Positions 785 through 48,591 of a stretch of 64,000 nt of DNA are shown here, one piece after another. Source of the stretch: a virus; the IMG/VR virus record IMGVR_UViG_3300048930_000192, positions 62,001-126,000 of that record, one strand, 5' to 3'. Numbering within the stretch: the stretch's first letter is position 1; each line of letters starts with the position of its first letter. Made by a program: the position numbers and the translations under genes. The notes below the pieces were generated by a model, which was not told the origin of the DNA, did no database searches, and worked only from the letters and a program-made list of their open reading frames with translations.

Positions 785-3700
785 TCAAGAACACTTGCTC
801 CAACCACATGATTTGCAACTAACACAACCTTCTTCTCTAACCAAAGACTCGGATTTACACGAATCGCAAGATTGCCCGGTGACTTTTTCACCATTTGGAA
901 TGTACTTTTTAAGTATTCTGCCAATAGATTTACCAAACGAATGCATATCACCGGGAGCCTTCTCGATTTGATCTACTATAAATTTGATATCAGAACCGTG
1001 TCTTAGGCTCAAACTTGTCATTCTTGCTATGACAACTTCTTCGTCTGTAAACTTAGAAGAAATGTTCTCTATAACTATACCATCATCTGTGTGAAGGTCG
1101 TAATGGCCTCTCTTAATCTTTACTAGCTTTCCTTGTTTGCTGGGTGTTATTTTACCCTTACCAGCAAATATCTCATATGGTGTATTCTGATATTTGCCGA
1201 CCACCACAAAGAATTCTTCACCACCGACCTTGGTTTCATAGATATCACAATCAAGAGACTTTGGTCTTTTTGGTGCAGTTGTCTTATTAAATGAATCTTT
1301 CTTTGATTCGTTCGAGCCACCAGATATTAATACACCGGCTCTGCATTTGTCTCTATAAACGGTGAACCCCTTGCACCCATGTTCCCACGCTTTCATGTAA
1401 ACTTCTGATATTGTGTCTTTGGTGCAAGACTCTGGCACATTACAAGTTTTAGAAATTGCATGACATATCCATTTTTGAGCAACAGCCTGAATTTCTACAC
1501 TTGCCAGCCAATCAATATCGTTGGAAGTAGATTGATAATATGGTGACACTTTGTAGAACTCCAAATCGTCAGCAGTTTTACAATTCTTGCTTTCGTCTAG
1601 TTTATATCCGTTGATATCCATCCAAGATTTAAATGCATGATGAAAAACTGGGTATTCTTGCCACTTGTCGCCCATGTCATCAACAAAATCTACTCTAGAA
1701 TTTACATCATTTGGATTAATCTTCTTTCTTCTCTTATAAAATATCAAATATGCCGGTTCTATACCAGAAGTAGTTTGAGTCATTGTAGAAACAGATCCCG
1801 TTGGTGCAGTTGTAGTATTAGCAATATTTCTGCGACCATACTTCATATAAAGTTCCAAAAGTTCTGGATCTGAATTTATTATTCTAGATATAAATGGATG
1901 ATCTTTTTCTAGGTTTCTGTCGAATACTGGAAAACAACCACGTTCTCCAGCCATTATACAAGAAGACTTATAAGAGTTTATGGCCAAAGTTTGATAAATC
2001 TTCTCTGTTATTTCAATAGAATCCTGAGAACCATATTTAATACCAAGCGCAGCAAGAGTATCACCAAGAGCTGTTATACCCAACCCAGTTCTTCTTCCAT
2101 TAACACAAGCAGTTCTAATATTTTCCCACAATCTCTTTTCATAAAATTTGATTGCGCCGTCTTCTGGATCAATTTCTATTTTATGCAGTATTTTGTCAAT
2201 TTGCTCTATTTCTAGGTCAATCATGTCGTCCATAAGTCGTTGTGATTGAATGATGACCTTTGAATAATTGTCATAGTCAAATTGAGCAGAACTTGTAAAT
2301 TTATTATTTACAAATCCCATAAGATTAATGCACATTAGCCGGCAAGAATCTGATGGAGACAATATAATTTCGCCGCAATTTTTTGAGTTGAACATACATC
2401 TTTCTTTTCTGCCATCAACAACTTGTTCGTTGCCGCCGATATAGAAATTGTGAAACTCATCAACTGTTCCATTATAAACATCTTGCTTTCCTGCATGAGC
2501 AACACTAATTACTTTATGATTATTGTAGGCTGCGTTTATTTTTAGATCGCCATAATCGTTGAATCCATATTTTGTGCCGAACCGACAGCTTAAATCATTC
2601 TTCTTGCATTCTAACTTATACTCTTTCAGCATTGGTTCTCTACCAATTATGTATTTGAAATCGCAATATAAATCCATCTGCGATTTCTTAATTGAATCCA
2701 TTTTTATTTTATAAGATTCATTAATAGAATGCGCTCGTTTTGCACAAGATTCTGGGTTTGAATTATTTATTTTGTTTGCACAAGTTATACCACAGCAAGA
2801 AACTTCGCGGTGCCCGTGGGCCACTTCAAATTTATCACCACAGCATTCGCAGACTTTTTCTACAAATACTCTAGAATCTTTGATAGAGCACTTATATCCC
2901 TGAGATTGCATTTTTTGCAATAATTTTGTTGTTCTTGGATCTATTTCGATCAGTTCGGCAGAAATACCGCAAACTTGGGCGCATTTCTTAGAAAATTCTA
3001 AAACATCGCCAAATTCATTGTATCTATAATCTGCAAATGCTAATGGCAAATCATTATTTTTTGCATATTCTTGCCATTCTTTTATGGAAAATCTTCTACC
3101 GATCGAAAGAGTCAATTCTATTCCTTTAGCCTTTAACTCTGTATTAGATATATCCTTTGCATTACCATTTTTCAAACCAGTATTAAGTTCAGATTGCAAT
3201 TTTCTATATTGAGCAGATCTTTCTGGATCAGCCAATATTTTGTGTATTGGATTATTGGCGCCCATCATTTTTTCTTTGTGGTGCTCGTTGTGGTCGGTAA
3301 TTAGCATCTTTTCTAGATTTTCAATTTTATTGTTCTTAGAATTATGATCTTTGTGATGTACTATATAACCTTTGCCAACGTCACCAAAATGATGGTTGTA
3401 GATATACCGATGCTCAGTTTTTTTGAAAGCATTGTTGCAATTTTTTAGCATCCAGTACATAGTACGCACATTTCTGGATTTGACATTAGGGATATCTACT
3501 ATCGATCCTTCATATCTAAATCCAACATGCAAACTATCGCCTGGGACAATGTCTTTTACCTCTTTAAAAGATCCATCTCGCATCATCATTCTATGATTAC
3601 TTGTGGTTTTAAATTTCGACCCGTCATCTAATATAACTTCATATACATCTTGATTATATCCGGTTATTCTAGGATTTCGCATTGTTCTAACAGCAATTCT

Positions 3701-4687
3701 TCCTCTGTCATCGCAGCAATAAACGGGAATGTCCAATCCTTCTTCTGCTAATTTAGATATTTCTACAAATCCTCTACCATCTGCAACAGATATTAATGTA
3801 TCTCCAGTAATACAAGGATTTGTAGAAGTACTTTCATATCCAAAATCCTTATAGATATCAGACGGCGTCAATCTCTGCGCGGTATCCCAAAATAGTAAAC
3901 CTGGTTCAGCAGAGGCCCACGCAGCCTCGATTATCTCATTCCACAAAGATTCTGCATCTACAGACTCTTTTATAGATGGATTAGAAGAATCAACCGGCCA
4001 TCTCAATTCTACTTTTTGCTTATTCTTTACTGCATTCATGAATTCGTCTGTTAAACGAATTGATATATTAGCACCAGTTACCTTCTTTAAATCCTTCTTG
4101 ATATTGATAAATGTTCTAATTTCTGGGTGGTGGCAAGATATAGTAAGCATTAGTGCCCCGCGCCGCCCACCCTGAGCCACTTCTCGGCAGGTATTGGAAA
4201 ATCTTTCCATGAAAACGCCAATGCCATCTGTAGTTCTTGCTGCGTTCTTTGTTTTAGAACCCTTTGGTCTTATGTTGCTTATGTCAAATCCGACACCACC
4301 GCGGCGCTTCATGATTTGAGCCTGTTCTTGATCAGTTTTCAATATGCCTGAATACGAATCTTTTGGCGAATCTATGACAAAACAATTGGAAACACTTTGA
4401 ATTTGATAATCGTTGCCAATTGCACTCATTGGCGATCCCTGTGGAATAACAAATTCAAAGTTCTTAAAAAGATTATATATTTCTTCTTCTGTTAGTGGAT
4501 TAGGATAATTAGCTTCTATTCTGGCAAATTCTTTTGCCAATCGTCTGTGCATTTGATCTGGAATTGATTCTAATATATTACCATCTTCATCTCTAAGCGC
4601 ATATTTTCCAACAAATATACCAGCAGCCAATTCATCACCATTAAAATACGAAATTGAATCCTTCATTGCTTCTTCGTAGCTAAACAT
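785..4687 (-). CDS. nrdJ: Adenosylcobalamin-dependent (class II) ribonucleotide reductase with an intein
   Basis: 1300 aa. Exteins are residues 1-291 and 771-1300 and the intein is 292-770. The N-extein has NCFVIDSP with an active-site Cys and the NrdJ-like RRGGVGFDISNIRPKG. The C-extein begins CGEIILSPSDSCRL, so the joined sequence NPCGE holds the catalytic Asn, thiyl-radical Cys and Glu of the finger loop. The C-terminus ends in a Cys-rich tail (CDSC, CVSCKSCGWSKC) typical of NrdJ redox and zinc tails. The enzyme reduces ribonucleotides without oxygen or a separate radical subunit but needs cobalamin from the host. Start: GGAGAAAGT just upstream of the ATG at 4687. Downstream lie the resolvase and PhoH genes, upstream ThyX. 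Confidence 0.93.
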   Translation of the reverse strand: MFSYEEAMKDSISYFNGDELAAGIFVGKYALRDEDGNILESIPDQMHRRLAKEFARIEANYPNPLTEEEIYNLFKNFEFVIPQGSPMSAIGNDYQIQSVSNCFVIDSPKDSYSGILKTDQEQAQIMKRRGGVGFDISNIRPKGSKTKNAARTTDGIGVFMERFSNTCREVAQGGRRGALMLTISCHHPEIRTFINIKKDLKKVTGANISIRLTDEFMNAVKNKQKVELRWPVDSSNPSIKESVDAESLWNEIIEAAWASAEPGLLFWDTAQRLTPSDIYKDFGYESTSTNPCITGDTLISVADGRGFVEISKLAEEGLDIPVYCCDDRGRIAVRTMRNPRITGYNQDVYEVILDDGSKFKTTSNHRMMMRDGSFKEVKDIVPGDSLHVGFRYEGSIVDIPNVKSRNVRTMYWMLKNCNNAFKKTEHRYIYNHHFGDVGKGYIVHHKDHNSKNNKIENLEKMLITDHNEHHKEKMMGANNPIHKILADPERSAQYRKLQSELNTGLKNGNAKDISNTELKAKGIELTLSIGRRFSIKEWQEYAKNNDLPLAFADYRYNEFGDVLEFSKKCAQVCGISAELIEIDPRTTKLLQKMQSQGYKCSIKDSRVFVEKVCECCGDKFEVAHGHREVSCCGITCANKINNSNPESCAKRAHSINESYKIKMDSIKKSQMDLYCDFKYIIGREPMLKEYKLECKKNDLSCRFGTKYGFNDYGDLKINAAYNNHKVISVAHAGKQDVYNGTVDEFHNFYIGGNEQVVDGRKERCMFNSKNCGEIILSPSDSCRLMCINLMGFVNNKFTSSAQFDYDNYSKVIIQSQRLMDDMIDLEIEQIDKILHKIEIDPEDGAIKFYEKRLWENIRTACVNGRRTGLGITALGDTLAALGIKYGSQDSIEITEKIYQTLAINSYKSSCIMAGERGCFPVFDRNLEKDHPFISRIINSDPELLELYMKYGRRNIANTTTAPTGSVSTMTQTTSGIEPAYLIFYKRRKKINPNDVNSRVDFVDDMGDKWQEYPVFHHAFKSWMDINGYKLDESKNCKTADDLEFYKVSPYYQSTSNDIDWLASVEIQAVAQKWICHAISKTCNVPESCTKDTISEVYMKAWEHGCKGFTVYRDKCRAGVLISGGSNESKKDSFNKTTAPKRPKSLDCDIYETKVGGEEFFVVVGKYQNTPYEIFAGKGKITPSKQGKLVKIKRGHYDLHTDDGIVIENISSKFTDEEVVIARMTSLSLRHGSDIKFIVDQIEKAPGDMHSFGKSIGRILKKYIPNGEKVTGQSCDSCKSESLVREEGCVSCKSCGWSKCS
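2378..3814 (-). mobile_element. Intein with HNH homing endonuclease inside nrdJ
   Basis: The intein begins at Cys292 (CITGDTLISV, block A), with a block-B-like TTSNHRMM at about 362-369, and ends in VYNGTVDEFHNFYIGG (block F) and FNSKN770 before Cys771. The middle contains YIVHHKDHNSKNNKIENLE, an HNH nuclease core at about residues 441-459, and two Cys pairs (CECC, CCGITC) that may bind zinc. The insertion lies directly before the radical Cys, so the reductase is inactive until splicing. The penultimate residue is Lys instead of the usual His, which may slow or alter Asn cyclisation. Confidence 0.9.
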
Positions 4688-5550: not shown

Positions 5551-6548
5551 ACCTTACTCCATTCTATAAGTTTAACTTTCGCCATCAAACCAGAATATGT
5601 ATTTTCGTCTATTATCTGTTGAGCGTTTATACCATTAAGAATCATGTCATTTACATCTTTTTCTTTGATATATTCTGGCCATATACAAACATTATATCCG
5701 TGCTCGATTGCACCACTAACACGATTTATTACATCTTTGTTTCGTGGTTCGTTATCGTATACAAATACACATAAATCTTTATCGCCTGGCAAACTAGATT
5801 CTGCCATTACTTTAAGGCCACTAACTGCAATAGCATTCGGTATCATCATGCTGTCTATTGGACCTTCTAATATATAAATCTTAGAAGTTGCATCTAGTTT
5901 GTCTATACCGTATATTAATTCTCGTTCTTCGCCTTCTGGCTTTATTATAATATACCGATACTTACTATATTTGTTCAAAGTACGGCATATTACACCATAT
6001 ACAGAACCATCTTTTTGTTTAAATGGTATTACTATCTTAGGATCATTAAAGTAGTTTCTTGTATCGTTTATTGATTTACCGAACGATTCAAAATCTTCTG
6101 AATAGTAAATCTCGTCATATAGTATAGACGGCACTTTACGATCTGTCAAATATCGAACAGCTATATGATCGGGTGGTAAGTCAGATATTCTAGGCAAATC
6201 TATGAAAATAGCCTTATCGAATCTTTCTTTTGGCGAAGTGGTAGATACTTTGATTTCTGGTTTACTTGGAGCAAACGACTGCTGAAAGATCTCCATTCTA
6301 TATTCGCGGTATAGTTCGGGATCGTAGTTCTTTAGAAACGTAGAAAATAGGTTTGCTATTTCGCAATTATGACACTTAGCATGAAACTCACCCTTCTTGT
6401 AGTAAAAATAGAACCGGCGTTTACTCTTATTCTTTTTAGAGTCGCCGCACGTTGGGCACCGACAAGTAGCCAGAGTTGCAGTTTTCCATGAAAACTTCTC
6501 AAGTCTGGCTGATATCATGTTAATATATTTTACGTCGATGTAACTCAT
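5547..6548 (-). CDS. DNA primase (T4 gp61-like, zinc finger plus TOPRIM)
   Basis: 333 aa. The N-terminus has a zinc-binding module CRCPTCGDSKKNKSKRRF ... CHNC at about residues 29-65. A TOPRIM segment follows with YILEGPIDSMM (the catalytic Glu) and LCVFVYDNEPRNKD (acidic metal site). This is the arrangement of T4 gp61 and DnaG-type primases that make RNA primers for the lagging strand. The gene lies between the polymerase C-half and thyX with 4-bp overlaps on both sides. A gp41-type helicase partner is not in the window. Confidence 0.88.
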   Translation of the reverse strand: MSYIDVKYINMISARLEKFSWKTATLATCRCPTCGDSKKNKSKRRFYFYYKKGEFHAKCHNCEIANLFSTFLKNYDPELYREYRMEIFQQSFAPSKPEIKVSTTSPKERFDKAIFIDLPRISDLPPDHIAVRYLTDRKVPSILYDEIYYSEDFESFGKSINDTRNYFNDPKIVIPFKQKDGSVYGVICRTLNKYSKYRYIIIKPEGEERELIYGIDKLDATSKIYILEGPIDSMMIPNAIAVSGLKVMAESSLPGDKDLCVFVYDNEPRNKDVINRVSGAIEHGYNVCIWPEYIKEKDVNDMILNGINAQQIIDENTYSGLMAKVKLIEWSKV

Positions 6549-7948
6549 TCAAAGAAATCCGAAACCGAATTGCGAGTCTCATAGTTCCAATTAATTGTAT
6601 TCAGCAAGCCATTTAGTGGATCTAGAAATGTCTTTTCATATTGAGTTTCTTTGTCGATATATCGTTGTAATTTAAATTCTTCTGGTATATCTTTAACAAA
6701 ACTAATTACATGAGATTTTGTTGGGTTTGGTACTTTAAGATATATAAACTTGATCTTGTCACCGCTGTCTATCTTCTGATACCGACTCTGTAGTTTATTA
6801 GATTCTATCAAGTTATTGTATATCAATGCACCTTTAACTGCTATAGGAGTACCTTTACTAAAGATCTCTTTGGCGTCGGTATATTTCTCTAGGTCATTAA
6901 CACCTCTGGGTGATGCTATGTCGATATATGGCCTGGTCATGAAGTCGTTTTTAAACTCTGTAACATAGTTTATTAGTTCATTTTCTGTACCAGTAAGCAT
7001 TATCTTTATGCACTTCTTTAATGCTTCCCTACATATATTAGGTGTACTAGACCTTTGAACCTCTATGCCCATGATTTTGAGTTTCGGCTCGGCATATCTA
7101 ACACCTTCGCTGTCAATAACATTTAGACAATATCTCTTTTTAGCTACCCATATACCTTTAGAGCATATATTCTCTCGTTTCATTACCATTTTGTTGGTAT
7201 AACAGTTCATATATTCGGCAAGTTCTTTATAGCACTTGTCCATAAATGGTTGTATTACTTCTTTAGATATTTTGTCTAATGTATTAGTAGCCTTTATTGG
7301 GTCAGCAATAGGCCCGAAAATTGAATCAACAATACGACTAGCGCTAATATACAAACTATCTGTATCAAGGTATTCAATATAATCAACACCACTCGTTTTA
7401 CATATTTTATTAAAGTATTCGTTGACATATTTTTCTACCCACTGGATTGCCAATTGGCCAGATATTGTAATAGCCTCTGCTTGGCGAACATCATAATGAC
7501 GGAAGTTAACCTGACCAATGGAACCATATCCCGAGTTGGCCGCAATCTTATATGCCATTTGTTTCGTTTCTAGCTTAGCAGCAAGTTTTTTGGTTTCAGC
7601 AATCTTTCTTTTCAGATCGTCTGTTGACAGATTTTCATACATAATTTTATTTTTATTTCTTATGGACAATTCTTTTTCCATAAGCTCTATTTCCTTCTTT
7701 AGGTCAATTGCCTTATTCTTTGCAGCCTTACGCCAATCCATGAAGTTACTCATGATTGACGACAAGAAACTTTGCCGATCATTACTGAACAGTTCACCGT
7801 TGGCAGCCATACCACAATTCAGTTTCTTAAGATACGATAGATCCATTTTCTTGTGTAGAAAATCTTGAACGGTAGGTGGCGACTTTAGATGGTATTCTAG
7901 GTTAAGTAGTTCAGTATCAGTCAGCAAACTCAAATCAATATTATGCAT
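6545..7948 (-). CDS. DNA polymerase, family B, C-terminal part (split gp43B-like)
   Basis: 467 aa. It holds palm motif B (KQMAYKIAANSGYGSIGQ) and motif C (YLDTDSLYIS, with two catalytic Asp) followed by a thumb-like region with MKRENICSKGIWVAKKRY, as in T4 gp43. It lacks the exonuclease domain and motif A, which are encoded by the upstream gene. The two halves must associate to form an active polymerase. The start ATG overlaps the end of the first half. The break lies between motif A and the fingers, and there is no intein motif at the junction. Confidence 0.92.
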   Translation of the reverse strand: MHNIDLSLLTDTELLNLEYHLKSPPTVQDFLHKKMDLSYLKKLNCGMAANGELFSNDRQSFLSSIMSNFMDWRKAAKNKAIDLKKEIELMEKELSIRNKNKIMYENLSTDDLKRKIAETKKLAAKLETKQMAYKIAANSGYGSIGQVNFRHYDVRQAEAITISGQLAIQWVEKYVNEYFNKICKTSGVDYIEYLDTDSLYISASRIVDSIFGPIADPIKATNTLDKISKEVIQPFMDKCYKELAEYMNCYTNKMVMKRENICSKGIWVAKKRYCLNVIDSEGVRYAEPKLKIMGIEVQRSSTPNICREALKKCIKIMLTGTENELINYVTEFKNDFMTRPYIDIASPRGVNDLEKYTDAKEIFSKGTPIAVKGALIYNNLIESNKLQSRYQKIDSGDKIKFIYLKVPNPTKSHVISFVKDIPEEFKLQRYIDKETQYEKTFLDPLNGLLNTINWNYETRNSVSDFFE

Positions 7949-9228
7949 TATAATCCTCTGCGTTGTTTTTCCGCTGATATTTTGCTTAACAAATCATTCT
8001 TTTCTATAATAGTATCTGATCCGATAGAATACTGGATAATCAAAGATGGATACAGTGAAGTGAGGTCGAAGCTAATGATCCAGTCCTTGAATCCCGGTCT
8101 AGGATCTTTAACATATGCACCGGCATATTGACCGTCAATCACTTCACCCTCTTTCTTTAGAGGTATAACTATGTTTTTATTCTTTAGATAGTTGTAGATA
8201 ATACAATCCCAAGTCTTGACTTGGCCAAACACATCTTCAAAGTTGCACTTGGCAACGTATGCGATGCCTATATGCAGATCTATTAGATTCAACTTATTAT
8301 CTAATTCATCTACTATATCTACGTCTTGAATATTATACATTACAAACTTATCAAAGTCCTTTGTATAAAATTCATGCATACTATCATATTCTGTATAGTC
8401 TAACTTGGTCTTATTGAGCTCGACTTTAGCTACATGGTTTAAAGAATATGATTCTAATGTCTGTGTAGAATACTTTCTATAAAGTTCGTATAGATCTAAT
8501 ATTGATATGCCAACCAATCTGAACGTCTGGCAAGTCTTGCCACGATATTCAATTTCTTCTTCTTTTATCCAATTCCATGGCGACAATTCTTTGGTTGCTT
8601 TCTCACCAAGAAGCTTATAACATCTGTTGACAATATACGGTATATCGTAAAATCTAATGTTCCAGCCAGTTATAACATCTGGATCTATTTTCTTAAATTC
8701 AGAAATGAAGGCTTTCAACATTTCTTCTTCTGAATCATAACATTCGATAATAGTATTTTCGAAAGTAGTTATAGTCTTATTAAGACAGAAAGTATGCCTT
8801 AAACCAGTGTTCTTATTCTTTATTGTTATAACATTGATTCTTTCTGTCGGATCATCAGCTGGCGCAAATCTTTCTTCTGATTCTGTTTCAATGTCTAAAG
8901 TTACAACAACTATGTCGTGCATATCATAATGAATTTCATCAGGAAACTTATCAGAAATATACTGATACTTGTAGTCGGTATTACCGTATACTTTAAAATT
9001 ATTGATATCTTCGTATTGCTTTAGAAAGTCTCTGGCATCAGATATTGATCCTATCTCGATACGATCTAAGAAATCACCTTGAATGCTGGTATAGTCAGTA
9101 GTCTTGGCAGATGTAATATACAAAGTAGGTTTAAACGCATTATCAATATATGTTACTCTTTTGCCGTTTTCTATACCACGGTAAAGAATATTATCGCCCT
9201 TTGTTTGTACATTCGTATAATAATTCAT
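7948..9228 (-). CDS. DNA polymerase, family B, N-terminal part (exonuclease and motif A, split gp43A-like)
   Basis: 426 aa. The 3'-5' exonuclease motifs are VVVTLDIETESE (Exo I), DVITGWNIRFYDIPYI (Exo II) and YNIQDVDIVDEL (Exo III). Palm motif A appears near the C-terminus as FDLTSLYPSLIIQY with the first catalytic Asp. The protein ends soon after in AEKQRRGL, before the fingers. Together with the next gene it equals a complete T4-type polymerase of about 890 aa. Similar two-gene polymerases are known in some T4-related phages. It follows a DUF5664-like gene with a 4-bp overlap. Confidence 0.92.
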   Translation of the reverse strand: MNYYTNVQTKGDNILYRGIENGKRVTYIDNAFKPTLYITSAKTTDYTSIQGDFLDRIEIGSISDARDFLKQYEDINNFKVYGNTDYKYQYISDKFPDEIHYDMHDIVVVTLDIETESEERFAPADDPTERINVITIKNKNTGLRHTFCLNKTITTFENTIIECYDSEEEMLKAFISEFKKIDPDVITGWNIRFYDIPYIVNRCYKLLGEKATKELSPWNWIKEEEIEYRGKTCQTFRLVGISILDLYELYRKYSTQTLESYSLNHVAKVELNKTKLDYTEYDSMHEFYTKDFDKFVMYNIQDVDIVDELDNKLNLIDLHIGIAYVAKCNFEDVFGQVKTWDCIIYNYLKNKNIVIPLKKEGEVIDGQYAGAYVKDPRPGFKDWIISFDLTSLYPSLIIQYSIGSDTIIEKNDLLSKISAEKQRRGL

Positions 9229-19507: not shown

Positions 19508-19685
19508 ATTTTAACTCTGGATAGTGAAAAATTGTGGCGGCCAAAAGAACGGTAACAGTACCACCACCGTACCACCACCACCGTACCACCACCACCGTAC
19601 CACCACCACCGTACCACCACCACCATTTTGACTCTGGATAGTCACCATTTTAACTCTGGATAGTGAAAAATTGTGGCGGCCAAAA
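19508..19685. repeat. Iteron region: 39-bp direct repeats flanking 14-bp tandem repeats
   Basis: A 39-bp sequence beginning ATTTTAACTCTGGATAGT occurs at 19,508-19,546 and identically at 19,647-19,685, with a partial copy (one change) at 19,625-19,642. Between them GTACCACCACCACC is repeated four times in full (19,569-19,624) after a shorter copy at 19,558. The block is strongly strand-asymmetric (C/A-rich on the plus strand). It sits between the divergent leftward replication operon and the rightward early units, where an origin or master control region would be expected. Confidence 0.75.
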
Positions 19686-19740
19686 TATCGTATTTAATCT
19701 TCAACGACCCCCACCACCCCTCTTTATATAGTGTCTTTTC

Positions 19741-19773
19741 GTATCTGAGATACTACAGTTAGTGTGTACTAAC
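19741..19773. promoter_or_regulatory. Operator pair upstream of the first early promoter
   Basis: GTATCT-G-AGATAC and GTTAGT-N4-ACTAAC are dyads lying 24-56 bp before the -35 box at 19,797. Versions of the same two motifs recur at 20,761-20,815, 21,696-21,730 and 22,806-22,842, which points to a common regulator. Confidence 0.6.
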
Positions 19774-19796
19774 AGTCGATTTTTTCACTCCAGTGC

Positions 19797-19824
19797 TTGA
19801 CTCTACGCGCGACGCGCATACACT
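19797..19824 (+). promoter_or_regulatory. Early promoter of the GG/CC-free unit
   Basis: TTGACT, a 16-bp spacer and TACACT. Transcription would begin near 19,831 and run through the GG/CC-free genes to the hairpin at 20,581. Confidence 0.65.
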
Positions 19825-19894
19825 CTATGTGTCTACTACGTGTCGCGCAACTTCGTGAGACACGAAAACAATAGTAGACTTGTGAGAATCTGAC

Positions 19895-20374
19895 ATGACT
19901 TCTACGCTTCAGATCGTTGCATCGTCGCACGTCGTTCGTTTTCGTGATCAAGAGCAGCGACTGTTTTCGTACAGTCTGCACGATTCGTCTGTCAGTCTCA
20001 CGCGCAACGCGCTTGCGTCGTACGCGCTCGATCGTGAAGACTCTCTCGCGCACGTGCATACGATCGATCGCGACGAATTCGAGCGCGCAAATACGCGCGT
20101 GATTCGTGACAGTGTGTACGAAAACTACGCGCAGAATCGTCACTCGATCGAGCGCGTACGACGCAAACGTTCGCGCGTGCGACGATCGATTCGTGCTTCA
20201 CTACGTTCTCGACTGTCGCGCGCTTCACTGTCAACGTCGATAACGTCAAGCGCGACAAGTGTGTGCGAATCGTGCGAAAAGTTGAATTCGACGAAGCGTA
20301 CAATGCAAGCGCAGAGCACGATTTGCAGATCGCGCAAGATTGCAGACTGCAATCGATCGAGATCATGCAAATGA
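19895..20374 (+). CDS. Early protein from the GG/CC-free unit (N-terminal reading frame)
   Basis: 159-codon frame starting ATG with a weak GTGAGA site. The first ~100 residues look like a protein (VVRFRDQEQRLFSYSLHD, TRVIRDSVYENYAQNRH) but the last ~55 become Ser/Arg-repetitive. A second frame (starting no later than 20,263) then takes over. Either two overlapping genes are present or one gene of about 220 aa needs a -1 shift near 20,170-20,220. No Gly, Pro or Trp codon occurs, because GG and CC are absent from the DNA. Function unknown. Confidence 0.5.
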   Translation: MTSTLQIVASSHVVRFRDQEQRLFSYSLHDSSVSLTRNALASYALDREDSLAHVHTIDRDEFERANTRVIRDSVYENYAQNRHSIERVRRKRSRVRRSIRASLRSRLSRASLSTSITSSATSVCESCEKLNSTKRTMQAQSTICRSRKIADCNRSRSCK

Positions 20375-20559
20375 TCGAAGATGTGCAGAAATTGCGCGCA
20401 AAGATCGCATCGTGCATCACTCTCTTTCACAAAATGAAAGAGAGCGCAGACAAAGAGACGCGCGACAAAGCGTTTGCTGCTCTCAACGCTGCGAAAAAGC
20501 GCAAGATTCTGCTCGCAGAGATGCTCGAATCGTTGAATTGCGCAGATCTTTTCGACTAA
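20263..20559 (+). CDS. Helical early protein from the GG/CC-free unit (C-terminal reading frame)
   Basis: 98 aa from a GTG start, all predicted helix: YNASAEHDLQIAQDCRLQS, EIMQMIEDVQKLRAKI, AALNAAKKRKILLAEMLES. The frame is open upstream to 20,110 and reads sensibly there too (ARFTVNVDNVKRDKCVRIV), supporting fusion by frameshift to the preceding frame. It contains no Gly, Pro or Trp. Function is unknown; a small coiled-coil regulator is a reasonable guess. Confidence 0.6.
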   Translation: MRIVRKVEFDEAYNASAEHDLQIAQDCRLQSIEIMQMIEDVQKLRAKIASCITLFHKMKESADKETRDKAFAALNAAKKRKILLAEMLESLNCADLFD

Positions 20560-20580
20560 GATCGAAAACAGAACAAAACA

Positions 20581-20616
20581 CGAACGAAGCGCTAACGTGC
20601 TTCGTTCGTCTTTCTC
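20581..20616 (+). terminator. Terminator of the GG/CC-free unit
   Basis: CGAACGAAGC, 8-nt loop, GCTTCGTTCG, then TCTTTCTC. A 10-bp stem is built without any GG or CC, so even the terminator respects the exclusion. Confidence 0.75.
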
Positions 20617-20680
20617 ACAAAGCGCCGATTGCCAGTGCTTGTTGCGCTGGCTTTCGTCGTTTTTCGGTCGGATCATAACA

Positions 20681-20759
20681 TCGCGTTCGCCATTGTATGC
20701 ATGGTGGTATCAAAAGTCAAGTAAAAAATAAAATAATATTATACGGTGGTGGCGGACGC
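20681..20759. repeat. Inverted-repeat module A
   Basis: CGCGTTCGCC at 20,681-20,690 and GGCGGACGCG at 20,750-20,759 are inverted with one G-T type change. First of five related modules in front of early units; the interior is AT-rich with no gene. Confidence 0.55.
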
Positions 20760-20760
20760 G

Positions 20761-20815
20761 AGGTTAGTAACGGCTAACTAACAACCATCTGGGATACCGT
20801 ATGTTAGTGAATACT
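20761..20815. promoter_or_regulatory. Operator copies before the second early promoter
   Basis: GTTAGTAACGGCTAACTAAC, CATCTGGGATAC and GTTAGTGAATACTAAT resemble the GTTAGT...ACTAAC and TATCTGAGATA dyads of the first unit. Confidence 0.5.
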
Positions 20816-20843
20816 AATGTGTGTCAAAATCAAGTCTACGTGC

Positions 20844-20872
20844 TTGACATTCGCACGTTTACGCGCTATACT
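20844..20872 (+). promoter_or_regulatory. Early promoter 2
   Basis: TTGACA, 17-bp spacer, TATACT; it precedes the gene at 20,952 by about 80 bp. Confidence 0.75.
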
Positions 20873-20951
20873 TATGTGTCACACGAGAGAATATTAGACG
20901 TGAGTGTTTCACGAAAAGTAAACTCTCAAAACAAGTTTGGAGTATCTGACA

Positions 20952-21533
20952 ATGACGACCGCCAATGCTCTGCCGTTTGCCCCCGTCACCCCCGGGGCGC
21001 CCAAGACCGCCAAGCCCGCTGCCCCGAGTGGCGTGACCTACGGGGACAAGATCAATGCTGCCTTCGCGCTTGAGATTGCCCGCACCGTGGGCTTCGACCC
21101 GTTCGACGTCGCCGCTCGCCCGACCTACTTCACCCGCCCGCAGATGTTCCGCATCGCGCTCGAAAACGGGGCCAAGTGGTTTCTCGACTACTACCGCAAG
21201 CAAAAGAGTGGCAAGGGCCTGGGCAAGCTGATCGCGCAGACGGGGCAAGACTGGTACACCCCCGAATTGTTCAGCGACCCCAAGTTCTACTCCCGCTTTG
21301 GCGTCAAGCTGGGCAAGCCGAATCATGTGAGCAACAAGCACACCAAGAATGGCGTCTGCGTCGACCCGACCCGCCCGTGCCTGCCCAACGGGACCAAATG
21401 CTACGACGCCGTCGTGCTCTGGGAATCGCTTGACCGCGTGCGTGAAAAGATGGGCGAAGTTCACTACCTCGCCATGTGCGACCGCAAGCCGTTCGATGCC
21501 GCGACCGACGAAGAAACCGAAGATTCCGAGTAA
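20952..21533 (+). CDS. Conserved early protein, paralogue 1 of 3
   Basis: 193 aa. The start ATG at 20,952 has GGAG 9 nt upstream; an in-frame TTG at 20,937 overlaps that site and is rejected. A Pro/Ala-rich N-terminus is followed by a core shared with the genes at 22,967 and 48,097: INAAFALEIARTVGFDP, RPTYFTRPQMFRIALENG, FYSRFGVKLGKPNHV, CLPNGTKCYD, LWESLDRVR, and an acidic tail. No known domain is recognised. The gene is very GC-rich with C/G third positions, unlike later genes, and has its own promoter and terminator, suggesting strong immediate-early expression. Confidence 0.85.
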   Translation: MTTANALPFAPVTPGAPKTAKPAAPSGVTYGDKINAAFALEIARTVGFDPFDVAARPTYFTRPQMFRIALENGAKWFLDYYRKQKSGKGLGKLIAQTGQDWYTPELFSDPKFYSRFGVKLGKPNHVSNKHTKNGVCVDPTRPCLPNGTKCYDAVVLWESLDRVREKMGEVHYLAMCDRKPFDAATDEETEDSE

Positions 21534-22863: not shown

Positions 22864-22892
22864 TTGACGTCTTCTAGCCTACGCGCTATCAT
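22864..22892 (+). promoter_or_regulatory. Early promoter 4
   Basis: TTGACG, 17-bp spacer, TATCAT; it drives paralogue 2. Confidence 0.65.
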
Positions 22893-22966
22893 TCACTGTC
22901 AACTGCAACTGTCGCGCGTCGCGTCGATCGCAAGTTGAAAATTACCCACGAAAGGGGTAAAGTATC

Positions 22967-23644
22967 ATGACCGAGAATAACAACGCCGTTGCCACCACTC
23001 CTGCCACCGCCGCCAAGAAGGGCCGCAAGCCCAAGAATGCCGCTGCCTTGCCTGATGTGCCGCCTGCCCCTGTCGCGCCTGGCGCCGCGACGCCCGAGAC
23101 CCCGATCAGCAAGCCCGCCAACGTGTCGCGTCGTGACCGTACCAATGCGGGATTCGTGCTCGACCTGTGCATGATCACTGGCACTGACCCGACCGACATC
23201 GCCAATCGCCCGCAGTATATGACCCGCCCGCAGATGGAAGCCGTTGCCATCTCGAATCGTGAGCCGTGGTACGTGAATATGTGGAACAAGCAGAAGACCA
23301 CCAAGCACCGCGACAAGACCATCGCCAAGACGCATGCCAACTGGTTCGACGAAGCCATGCTCGTCGATGGCAAGAAGTTCAGCCGATTCGGGATCGTGTG
23401 TGGCAAGCCGGGCCACGTGAGTTATGCCACTGTTCATGCCGGGGTGATGGTCGACCCCAAGGGCCCGACCCTGCCCGACGGGACCAAGCAGTACGACATC
23501 ACCCAACTCTGGGATTCTCTCGACCGAGTGATCGCTGCCTACCCCGCGGGGACCTATGCCGAACTGAGCCAGCGCAAGCCCGTTGTCGCTGATGACTCGA
23601 CCGATGAGTCTGACACCGAGACCAACGACGAGACCGCCGACTAA
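22967..23644 (+). CDS. Conserved early protein, paralogue 2 of 3
   Basis: 225 aa. A long Ala/Pro/Lys-rich N-terminal tail of about 50 residues precedes the shared core: TNAGFVLDLCMITGTDPTDI, RPQYMTRPQMEAVAISN, FSRFGIVCGKPGHVS, GPTLPDGTKQYDITQLWDSL. It ends in an acidic tail (ESDTETNDETAD). The basic-then-acidic layout suggests nucleic-acid or protein binding, but no domain is recognised. AAAGGGGTAAAGT is the ribosome site. Codon use is strongly GC-rich. Confidence 0.85.
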   Translation: MTENNNAVATTPATAAKKGRKPKNAAALPDVPPAPVAPGAATPETPISKPANVSRRDRTNAGFVLDLCMITGTDPTDIANRPQYMTRPQMEAVAISNREPWYVNMWNKQKTTKHRDKTIAKTHANWFDEAMLVDGKKFSRFGIVCGKPGHVSYATVHAGVMVDPKGPTLPDGTKQYDITQLWDSLDRVIAAYPAGTYAELSQRKPVVADDSTDESDTETNDETAD

Positions 23645-48096: not shown

Positions 48097-48591
48097 ATGT
48101 CCAACGATTCGACCGCCGTTACTGATGCCGGTTCTGAAAACAAGGCTCCGCGAGTGCTTTATGGTACTCGTGTTGACGCCGCATTTGCCCTTGAACTCGG
48201 GCGCCTGCGTGGCGAGGACTATACTGATCCCAGCCAGGATCGACCGAAGTATATCACTCGCCCTGAACTGATCCGCATTGGTATCGAGAATGGCACCAAC
48301 TTCTATGTGGATTACATCAACGATCATCCTGGTTCGCGTGAGGCGTACATGACCGATGAAATGCTTGAGCCTGACCAGTCGAAGCGCACCAAGTATACTC
48401 GATTTGGCATCACTCTTGGTGTTCCTGGCAAGGCAACTCAGCGCACCACAAATCGCAATCCTGCTGGCCCTCGCGCAAGTGATGGTACGCCGCAGTATAA
48501 GATGGATATTTTCTTTACTGCGCTCGACAACCTTATTCGTGACATGAAGCCCGAAGAATTCAATGAAACCTTTGCGCGTACTGCCCTCTGA
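48097..48591 (+). CDS. Conserved early protein, paralogue 3 of 3
   Basis: 164 aa. Shares with the 20,952 and 22,967 proteins the sequence VDAAFALELGRLRG, RPKYITRPELIRIGIENG, FYVDYINDH, YTRFGITLGVPG, GPRASDGTPQYKMDIFFTAL. It lacks the long Ala/Pro tail and the acidic C-terminus. Codons are again GC-richer than in its neighbours. Own promoter, GGAG site and terminator. Function unknown. Confidence 0.82.
   Translation: MSNDSTAVTDAGSENKAPRVLYGTRVDAAFALELGRLRGEDYTDPSQDRPKYITRPELIRIGIENGTNFYVDYINDHPGSREAYMTDEMLEPDQSKRTKYTRFGITLGVPGKATQRTTNRNPAGPRASDGTPQYKMDIFFTALDNLIRDMKPEEFNETFARTAL

Follow-up and report, generated by a model that had tools for sequence, protein, structure and literature searches.

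What could keep a complete phage transcription unit, from promoter to terminator, free of every GG and CC dinucleotide? The question is raised by 834 bp within a 64,000-nucleotide stretch (the window, to which all coordinates refer), which was analysed here as part of a 131,810-bp virus record (the contig). The contig is that of a T4-like phage, to which it was assigned by its replication and nucleotide-metabolism genes (split family-B DNA polymerase, clamp, clamp loader, ribonucleotide reductase, ThyX, gp32, and gp59), baseplate proteins, RegA-type translational regulator, and NAMPT; the closest match of the clamp loader is 56% identical. The polymerase is encoded by two adjoining genes (6545-9228), and the large subunit of the ribonucleotide reductase (785-4687; 1300 aa) includes an HNH-endonuclease-like segment at residues 405-642, which is possibly an intein. 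No Rfam elements other than tRNAs were detected in the contig. Genes to the left of ~19.4 kb lie on the minus strand, and those to the right, mostly on the plus strand, where they are small, early-looking, and accompanied by tRNAs. The GG/CC-free unit opens the plus-strand series to the right of this strand switch and, judged by its position and promoter type, appears to be early.

In the gaps between the early units, a minus-strand promoter is repeated (at 20720, 21653, 22763, and 23761), facing back toward the preceding terminator. An operator-like element resembling GGCGGACRCGAKGTT recurs upstream of the early promoters (at 20752, 21683, 22795, 23795, and ~24745) and is matched in reverse beside the minus-strand promoters. 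Three early proteins are paralogous (20952-21533, 22967-23644, and 48097-48591; 32-43% identity to the first), and no match for the first of these was found in the phage collection.

From 19791 to 20624 (834 bp, 51% G+C), no GG or CC starts on either strand, against about 109 expected from base composition; the dinucleotides that border this stretch are a CC at 19790 and a CC at 20625. The composition, per 835 nt, is A221, C219, G209, and T186, with 113 CG and 83 GC. Thus, the dinucleotide count agrees with the earlier note, made from the sequence of the window, on the absence of GG/CC from about 19,791 to 20,625, on the roughly one hundred occurrences expected at random, and on a sequence that is half G+C and rich in CG and GC. 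The longest other GG/CC-free run in the contig is 142 bp. When dinucleotides were counted in sliding windows over the genome, as that note had proposed, the unit scored z = -7.8 in 400-bp windows, whereas the rest of the contig (n = 6,409 windows) had a mean of -0.10, a standard deviation of 1.03, and a minimum of -2.98, and the minimum among 40,230 windows of 400 bp from other phage loci was -3.66. The unit is therefore an isolated outlier. No other word among those of 2 to 5 bases tested was absent from the unit beyond chance, and outside the unit, the contig shows no GG/CC depletion (rho 1.02). The exclusion is real, complete, discrete, and specific; the effect is all-or-none and limited to this unit. 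A neutral origin is very unlikely.

The features of the unit are as follows.

19791-20624, either strand: stretch without GG or CC, from the dinucleotide count
19797-19824, plus strand: sigma-70-type promoter (TTGACT, 16-nt spacer, TACACT), from the sequence pattern
19834-19894, plus strand: leader with a predicted hairpin at 19834-19876, from sequence and folding
19895-20152, plus strand: coding, frame A, from the ATG at 19895 (N-terminal part of a putative protein), from codon usage
20010-20034, plus strand: left arm of an inverted repeat, 25 nt, 96% complementary, from a repeat search
20145-20169, plus strand: right arm of the inverted repeat, covering the first frame switch
20153-20214, plus strand: coding signal in frame B, starting at GAGCGCGTAC, with the boundary placed to about 15 nt, from codon usage
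20215-20559, plus strand: coding signal in frame C (C-terminal part), with the stop codon TAA at 20557-20559, from codon usage
20580-20616, plus strand, terminator-like on the minus strand too: terminator with a GG/CC-free stem (ACGAACGAAGC...GCTTCGTTCGT) and the tail CTTTCTC
20631-20660, plus strand: second hairpin with an ordinary, GG/CC-containing stem (GCCAGTGC...GCGCTGGC), just beyond the excluded stretch

The claim that the exclusion covers just the unit from promoter to terminator fits these coordinates, but its upstream edge hangs on the single CC at 19790, given that 19720-19789 is already free of GG and CC. Immediately upstream of the unit, 19536-19720 is rich in CC and carries tandem repeats of 14 nt (ACCACCACCGTACC).

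The coding content was resolved by frame-specific codon usage, with the neighbouring early genes as the training set. The coding signal follows frame A to ~20150, frame B to ~20200-20215, and frame C to the stop codon; frame A itself stays open to 20374, the extension being an Arg/Ser-rich tail. Hence, codon usage does not bear out two clean overlapping frames, but indicates one coding sequence with two frame switches, probably a single gene of ~222 codons that shifts frame near 20153 and again near 20215. The first switch, at GAGCGCGTAC, amounts to an apparent +1 shift or the loss of 2 nt. A CGCG run is present at both switches (GAGCGCGTAC and TGTCGCGCGCTTC), and the loss of one CG pair at each run would account for the shifts, which may be true mutations, programmed, or assembly errors. 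AlphaFold runs without an alignment yielded low-confidence models (pLDDT 50 and 68), with long helices predicted in the C-terminal, frame C part. Searches with the unit proteins produced no convincing match in Pfam, PHROG, or PDB and none in PADLOC; no known anti-CRISPR or defence family was found, nor any nuclease or deaminase motif.

Neither the protein sequence nor codon usage alone can cause the exclusion. Re-encoding the unit protein with the codon usage of the ten neighbouring early genes, which carry 88-175 GG/CC per kb, gave 57.5 ± 5.8 GG/CC, with a minimum of 37 in 10,000 trials, against 0 in the real sequence; the codon usage of four genes further right gave 33.8 ± 5.4. The non-coding parts obey the exclusion as well, with 6.9 GG/CC expected in the 43-nt promoter, 6.0 in the 61-nt leader, and 7.0 in the 65-nt 3' part, and 0 observed in each, which upholds the view of the earlier note that codon choice or protein selection alone was not responsible. 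The codons that are permitted in the unit (ATC, GTC, CGC, and CTC) match those of the neighbouring early genes, the share of ATC being 0.82 in the unit, 0.74 in these neighbours, and 0.34 in the genes further right. The unit thus looks like an old, adapted resident rather than a recent import. A promoter like that of the next unit, together with these codons, makes the unit look native.

The exclusion has a cost. Most early promoters of this phage contain TGCC in the spacer, whereas the spacer of the unit's promoter (-35 at 19797; -10 ending at 19824) is CG-rich and lacks it. The ribosome sites usual for the early genes are GGAG or AGGA, neither of which occurs in the unit; instead, a GG-free, ribosome-binding-site-like UGAGA is located at 19883-19887, 7 nt ahead of the ATG. 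Similarly, the terminator stems of the next units contain G and C runs (GGGGCTGG), whereas the stem of this unit (20580-20609, with the tail extending to about 20616) is built of ACGAACGAAGC. The normal promoter, ribosome-site, and terminator parts appear to have been swapped for GG/CC-free ones, so that the GGAG-type ribosome site, the TGCC spacer, and the G/C-run terminator stem were all given up.

The symmetric GG/CC pair best fits a word in double-stranded DNA, and a DNA-level constraint on both strands is likely, resting on the ~43 bp of untranscribed promoter. The alternative is an unlikely one, namely, that the cause lies in the mRNA, with the transcript avoiding both GG and CC so as to evade an RNase, for instance, or to prevent pairing with ribosome-site or anti-ribosome-site sequences. 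It draws support from the GG/CC-free runs that rank second and third in the contig by extremeness: the second is the promoter-leader stretch of the unit that follows (20798-20938, ~140 bp), and the third lies in the leader of unit four (22878-22943). They could be the same trait in a milder form, or else reflect ribosome-site accessibility; in early-unit leaders, GG/CC avoidance may have an ordinary cause, such as a need for the ribosome site to stay accessible. The transcript of the unit also folds better than dinucleotide shuffles (z -4.9) and codon-preserving shuffles (z -2.7), but the same holds, to an equal degree, for the minus strand compared with shuffles of itself. Inverted repeats in DNA would lead one to expect this, and it weakens the case for an RNA-level cause. 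Furthermore, the neighbouring early genes, with their 88-175 GG/CC per kb, show no comparable avoidance, the promoter upstream of the transcription start is GG/CC-free too, and a GG-reading RNase leaves the absence of CC unexplained. Escape from a RegB-like GGAG cutter, one of the possibilities raised in the earlier note, lacks support, because enzymes of this type need only GGAG and so predict the loss of GGAG only, yet every GG and every CC is gone.

The best explanation, which we put forward as possible but doubtful, is that a native immediate-early unit has been kept GG/CC-free by long-standing selection on nucleic acid, the cause being a DNA-targeting activity with an obligatory GG/CC. 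Selection would then act on the nucleic acid itself rather than on the protein, and the unit would need to be expressed while an antiviral activity of this kind is present. The candidate reader would be a CRISPR-Cas system, either of type I-F, with its GG/CC PAM, or an NGG Cas9, and the product would be an early counter-defence or takeover protein. Known activities with an obligatory two-base word are few, and CRISPR-Cas interference of these kinds is the known one with so short a word. We infer that DNA and not RNA is under selection, that the reader is CRISPR-like or otherwise keyed to a dinucleotide, and what role the protein has.

The phage DNA appears exposed to sequence-directed attack, given the strong genome-wide avoidance of the palindromes CTGCAG (2 in the contig versus 54 expected, both strands counted), AACGTT, and CTCGAG; TACGTA and, in addition, CCTCC/GGAGG are strongly avoided as well. 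The avoidance of such restriction-type palindromes counts in favour of evasion of DNA targeting. The native type I-F system has GG as its PAM (PMC5059440), the very word excluded here, and the joint absence of GG and CC removes this PAM from both strands. PAM depletion has been reported in phages whose hosts bear CRISPR (Kupczok and Bollback 2014, PMC4246573), where selection strips a short word needed for DNA targeting, as it would in the unit; that depletion, however, is statistical and concerns phage genomes, whereas in the present case the word is lost altogether, and from a single unit of an otherwise normal genome.

Several observations speak against a PAM. A system with a GG PAM could attack anywhere, yet the genome outside the unit is undepleted, at the rho of 1.02 given above. 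The edges of the exclusion track one transcription unit, whereas selection by a PAM should track an entry region. The type I-F anti-CRISPR loci of phages JBD30 and D3112 provide a comparison, being small counter-defence genes of Pseudomonas phages from a host group with GG-PAM systems. Unlike the unit, they are ordinary in GG/CC for their own genomes, with observed/expected ratios of 0.87 versus 0.87 for the genome in JBD30 and 0.78 versus 0.88 in D3112, and the phage collection that holds these two records contained no match to the unit proteins. Thus, of the proposal that the unit escapes a PAM, the identity of the word stands, but the known anti-CRISPR loci, which are not specially depleted, lend it no support. 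The putative role in counter-defence is likewise weakened by the unit proteins' lack of a convincing Pfam, PHROG, PADLOC, or PDB match.

That the exclusion fits a single transcription unit so sharply suggests harm from an internal GG or CC to the expression of this unit in particular. Two other explanations would fit this sharpness better than a PAM does; no such activity was identified. In the first, which we regard as improbable, the product of the unit or a partner made with it acts on GG/CC, and the unit, being free of the word, keeps working amid the attack; the actor could be a nuclease, a deaminase, a modifying enzyme, or a transcription terminator. The edges coincide exactly with one transcription unit, the excluded word is a symmetric DNA word, and T4 offers a precedent in Alc, an early factor that terminates transcription on cytosine-containing DNA (PMC2988021). 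However, the unit has no nuclease or deaminase motif, the phage genome is otherwise normal in GG/CC, and the genes scanned include no cytosine-modifying enzyme, only adenine-type methylases, so that the phage would be attacking its own DNA.

In the second, to which we give still less credence, GG/CC would be modified, bound, or able to stop RNA polymerase during infection, and the unit would have to be read through; the effect would be coupled to transcription rather than degradative. We know of no factor with GG/CC dinucleotide specificity that could play this part. The exclusion does run from promoter to terminator and end there, but the parts of the contig that were scanned contain no candidate gene.

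Explanations that dispense with selection fare worse. Growth of the unit by duplication, including inverted duplication, from a small GG/CC-free vocabulary of CG-rich words (such as CGATCG and GCGC) has little to recommend it: distinct 5- to 7-mers are slightly fewer than in shuffles and there is the 25-nt inverted repeat, but the k-mers are almost as diverse as in a random sequence (787 distinct 8-mers versus 798 in shuffles), new GG/CC would soon arise by mutation at many positions, and ~220 codons of coding signal follow early-gene codon usage. A mutational scar left by a deaminase was rejected as the sole cause, since the unit retains 51% G+C and is enriched in CG. A sequencing or assembly artefact is hardly credible: two apparent frame shifts do occur inside ~60 nt, but some 100 collapsed G and C runs would break the frame everywhere, only one unit is affected and its promoter, coding signal, and terminator are intact, and homopolymer collapse in particular was rejected because the frame is open over long stretches and AA and TT are normal.

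Relatives of the unit were sought by several routes. No orthologues were found by tblastn in phages and plasmids or by 8-mer peptide scans of IMG/VR and GTDB genomes, and none were reached via the neighbouring early protein family, a neighbouring gene, or the early promoter and operator patterns. Two matches to the promoter pattern, L088 and L089, were rejected as unrelated contigs.

Among known systems, phage T5 is one of the closest. According to older literature, its first-step-transfer DNA lacks EcoRI sites. As here, a word is missing from an early region alone, which in T5 allows that region to act ahead of the defence; in T5, however, this is the whole first-entering region and a 6-base word, and here, one unit and a 2-base word. 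Restriction-site avoidance in the T7, T5, and N4 groups (PMC8594841) and in plasmids (PMC11602122) resembles the unit in the complete or near-complete loss of a word, but involves longer words and whole genomes, rather than a dinucleotide in one gene. Restriction avoidance in the sense of a word of at least 4 bases missing genome-wide does not describe GG/CC, which has 2 bases and is missing from one unit. T4 makes two early factors, Alc and RegB, whose shut-off of DNA or RNA depends on sequence or base chemistry: RegB cuts specific sites in some early mRNAs, and Alc acts on unmodified cytosine DNA (PMC2988021). Neither predicts the loss of all GG and CC in one unit.

The exclusion is a case of motif avoidance that by far exceeds, in sharpness and in local confinement, the known cases that we found, and it looks like the outcome of strong selection by something that reads GG/CC. 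We tentatively suggest that a novel GG/CC-keyed activity, of phage or host, acts during infection, and that the whole unit, promoter and terminator included, has been rewritten so as to escape its notice. Phages are already known to lose restriction words and, more weakly, CRISPR PAMs across their genomes. The total loss of a two-letter word over a complete transcription unit, at the cost of its usual elements, would mark selection far more sharply than this. As the unit is short, a reporter can measure the cost of GG/CC to its expression, and the exclusion would point to a two-base-specific activity open to direct search.
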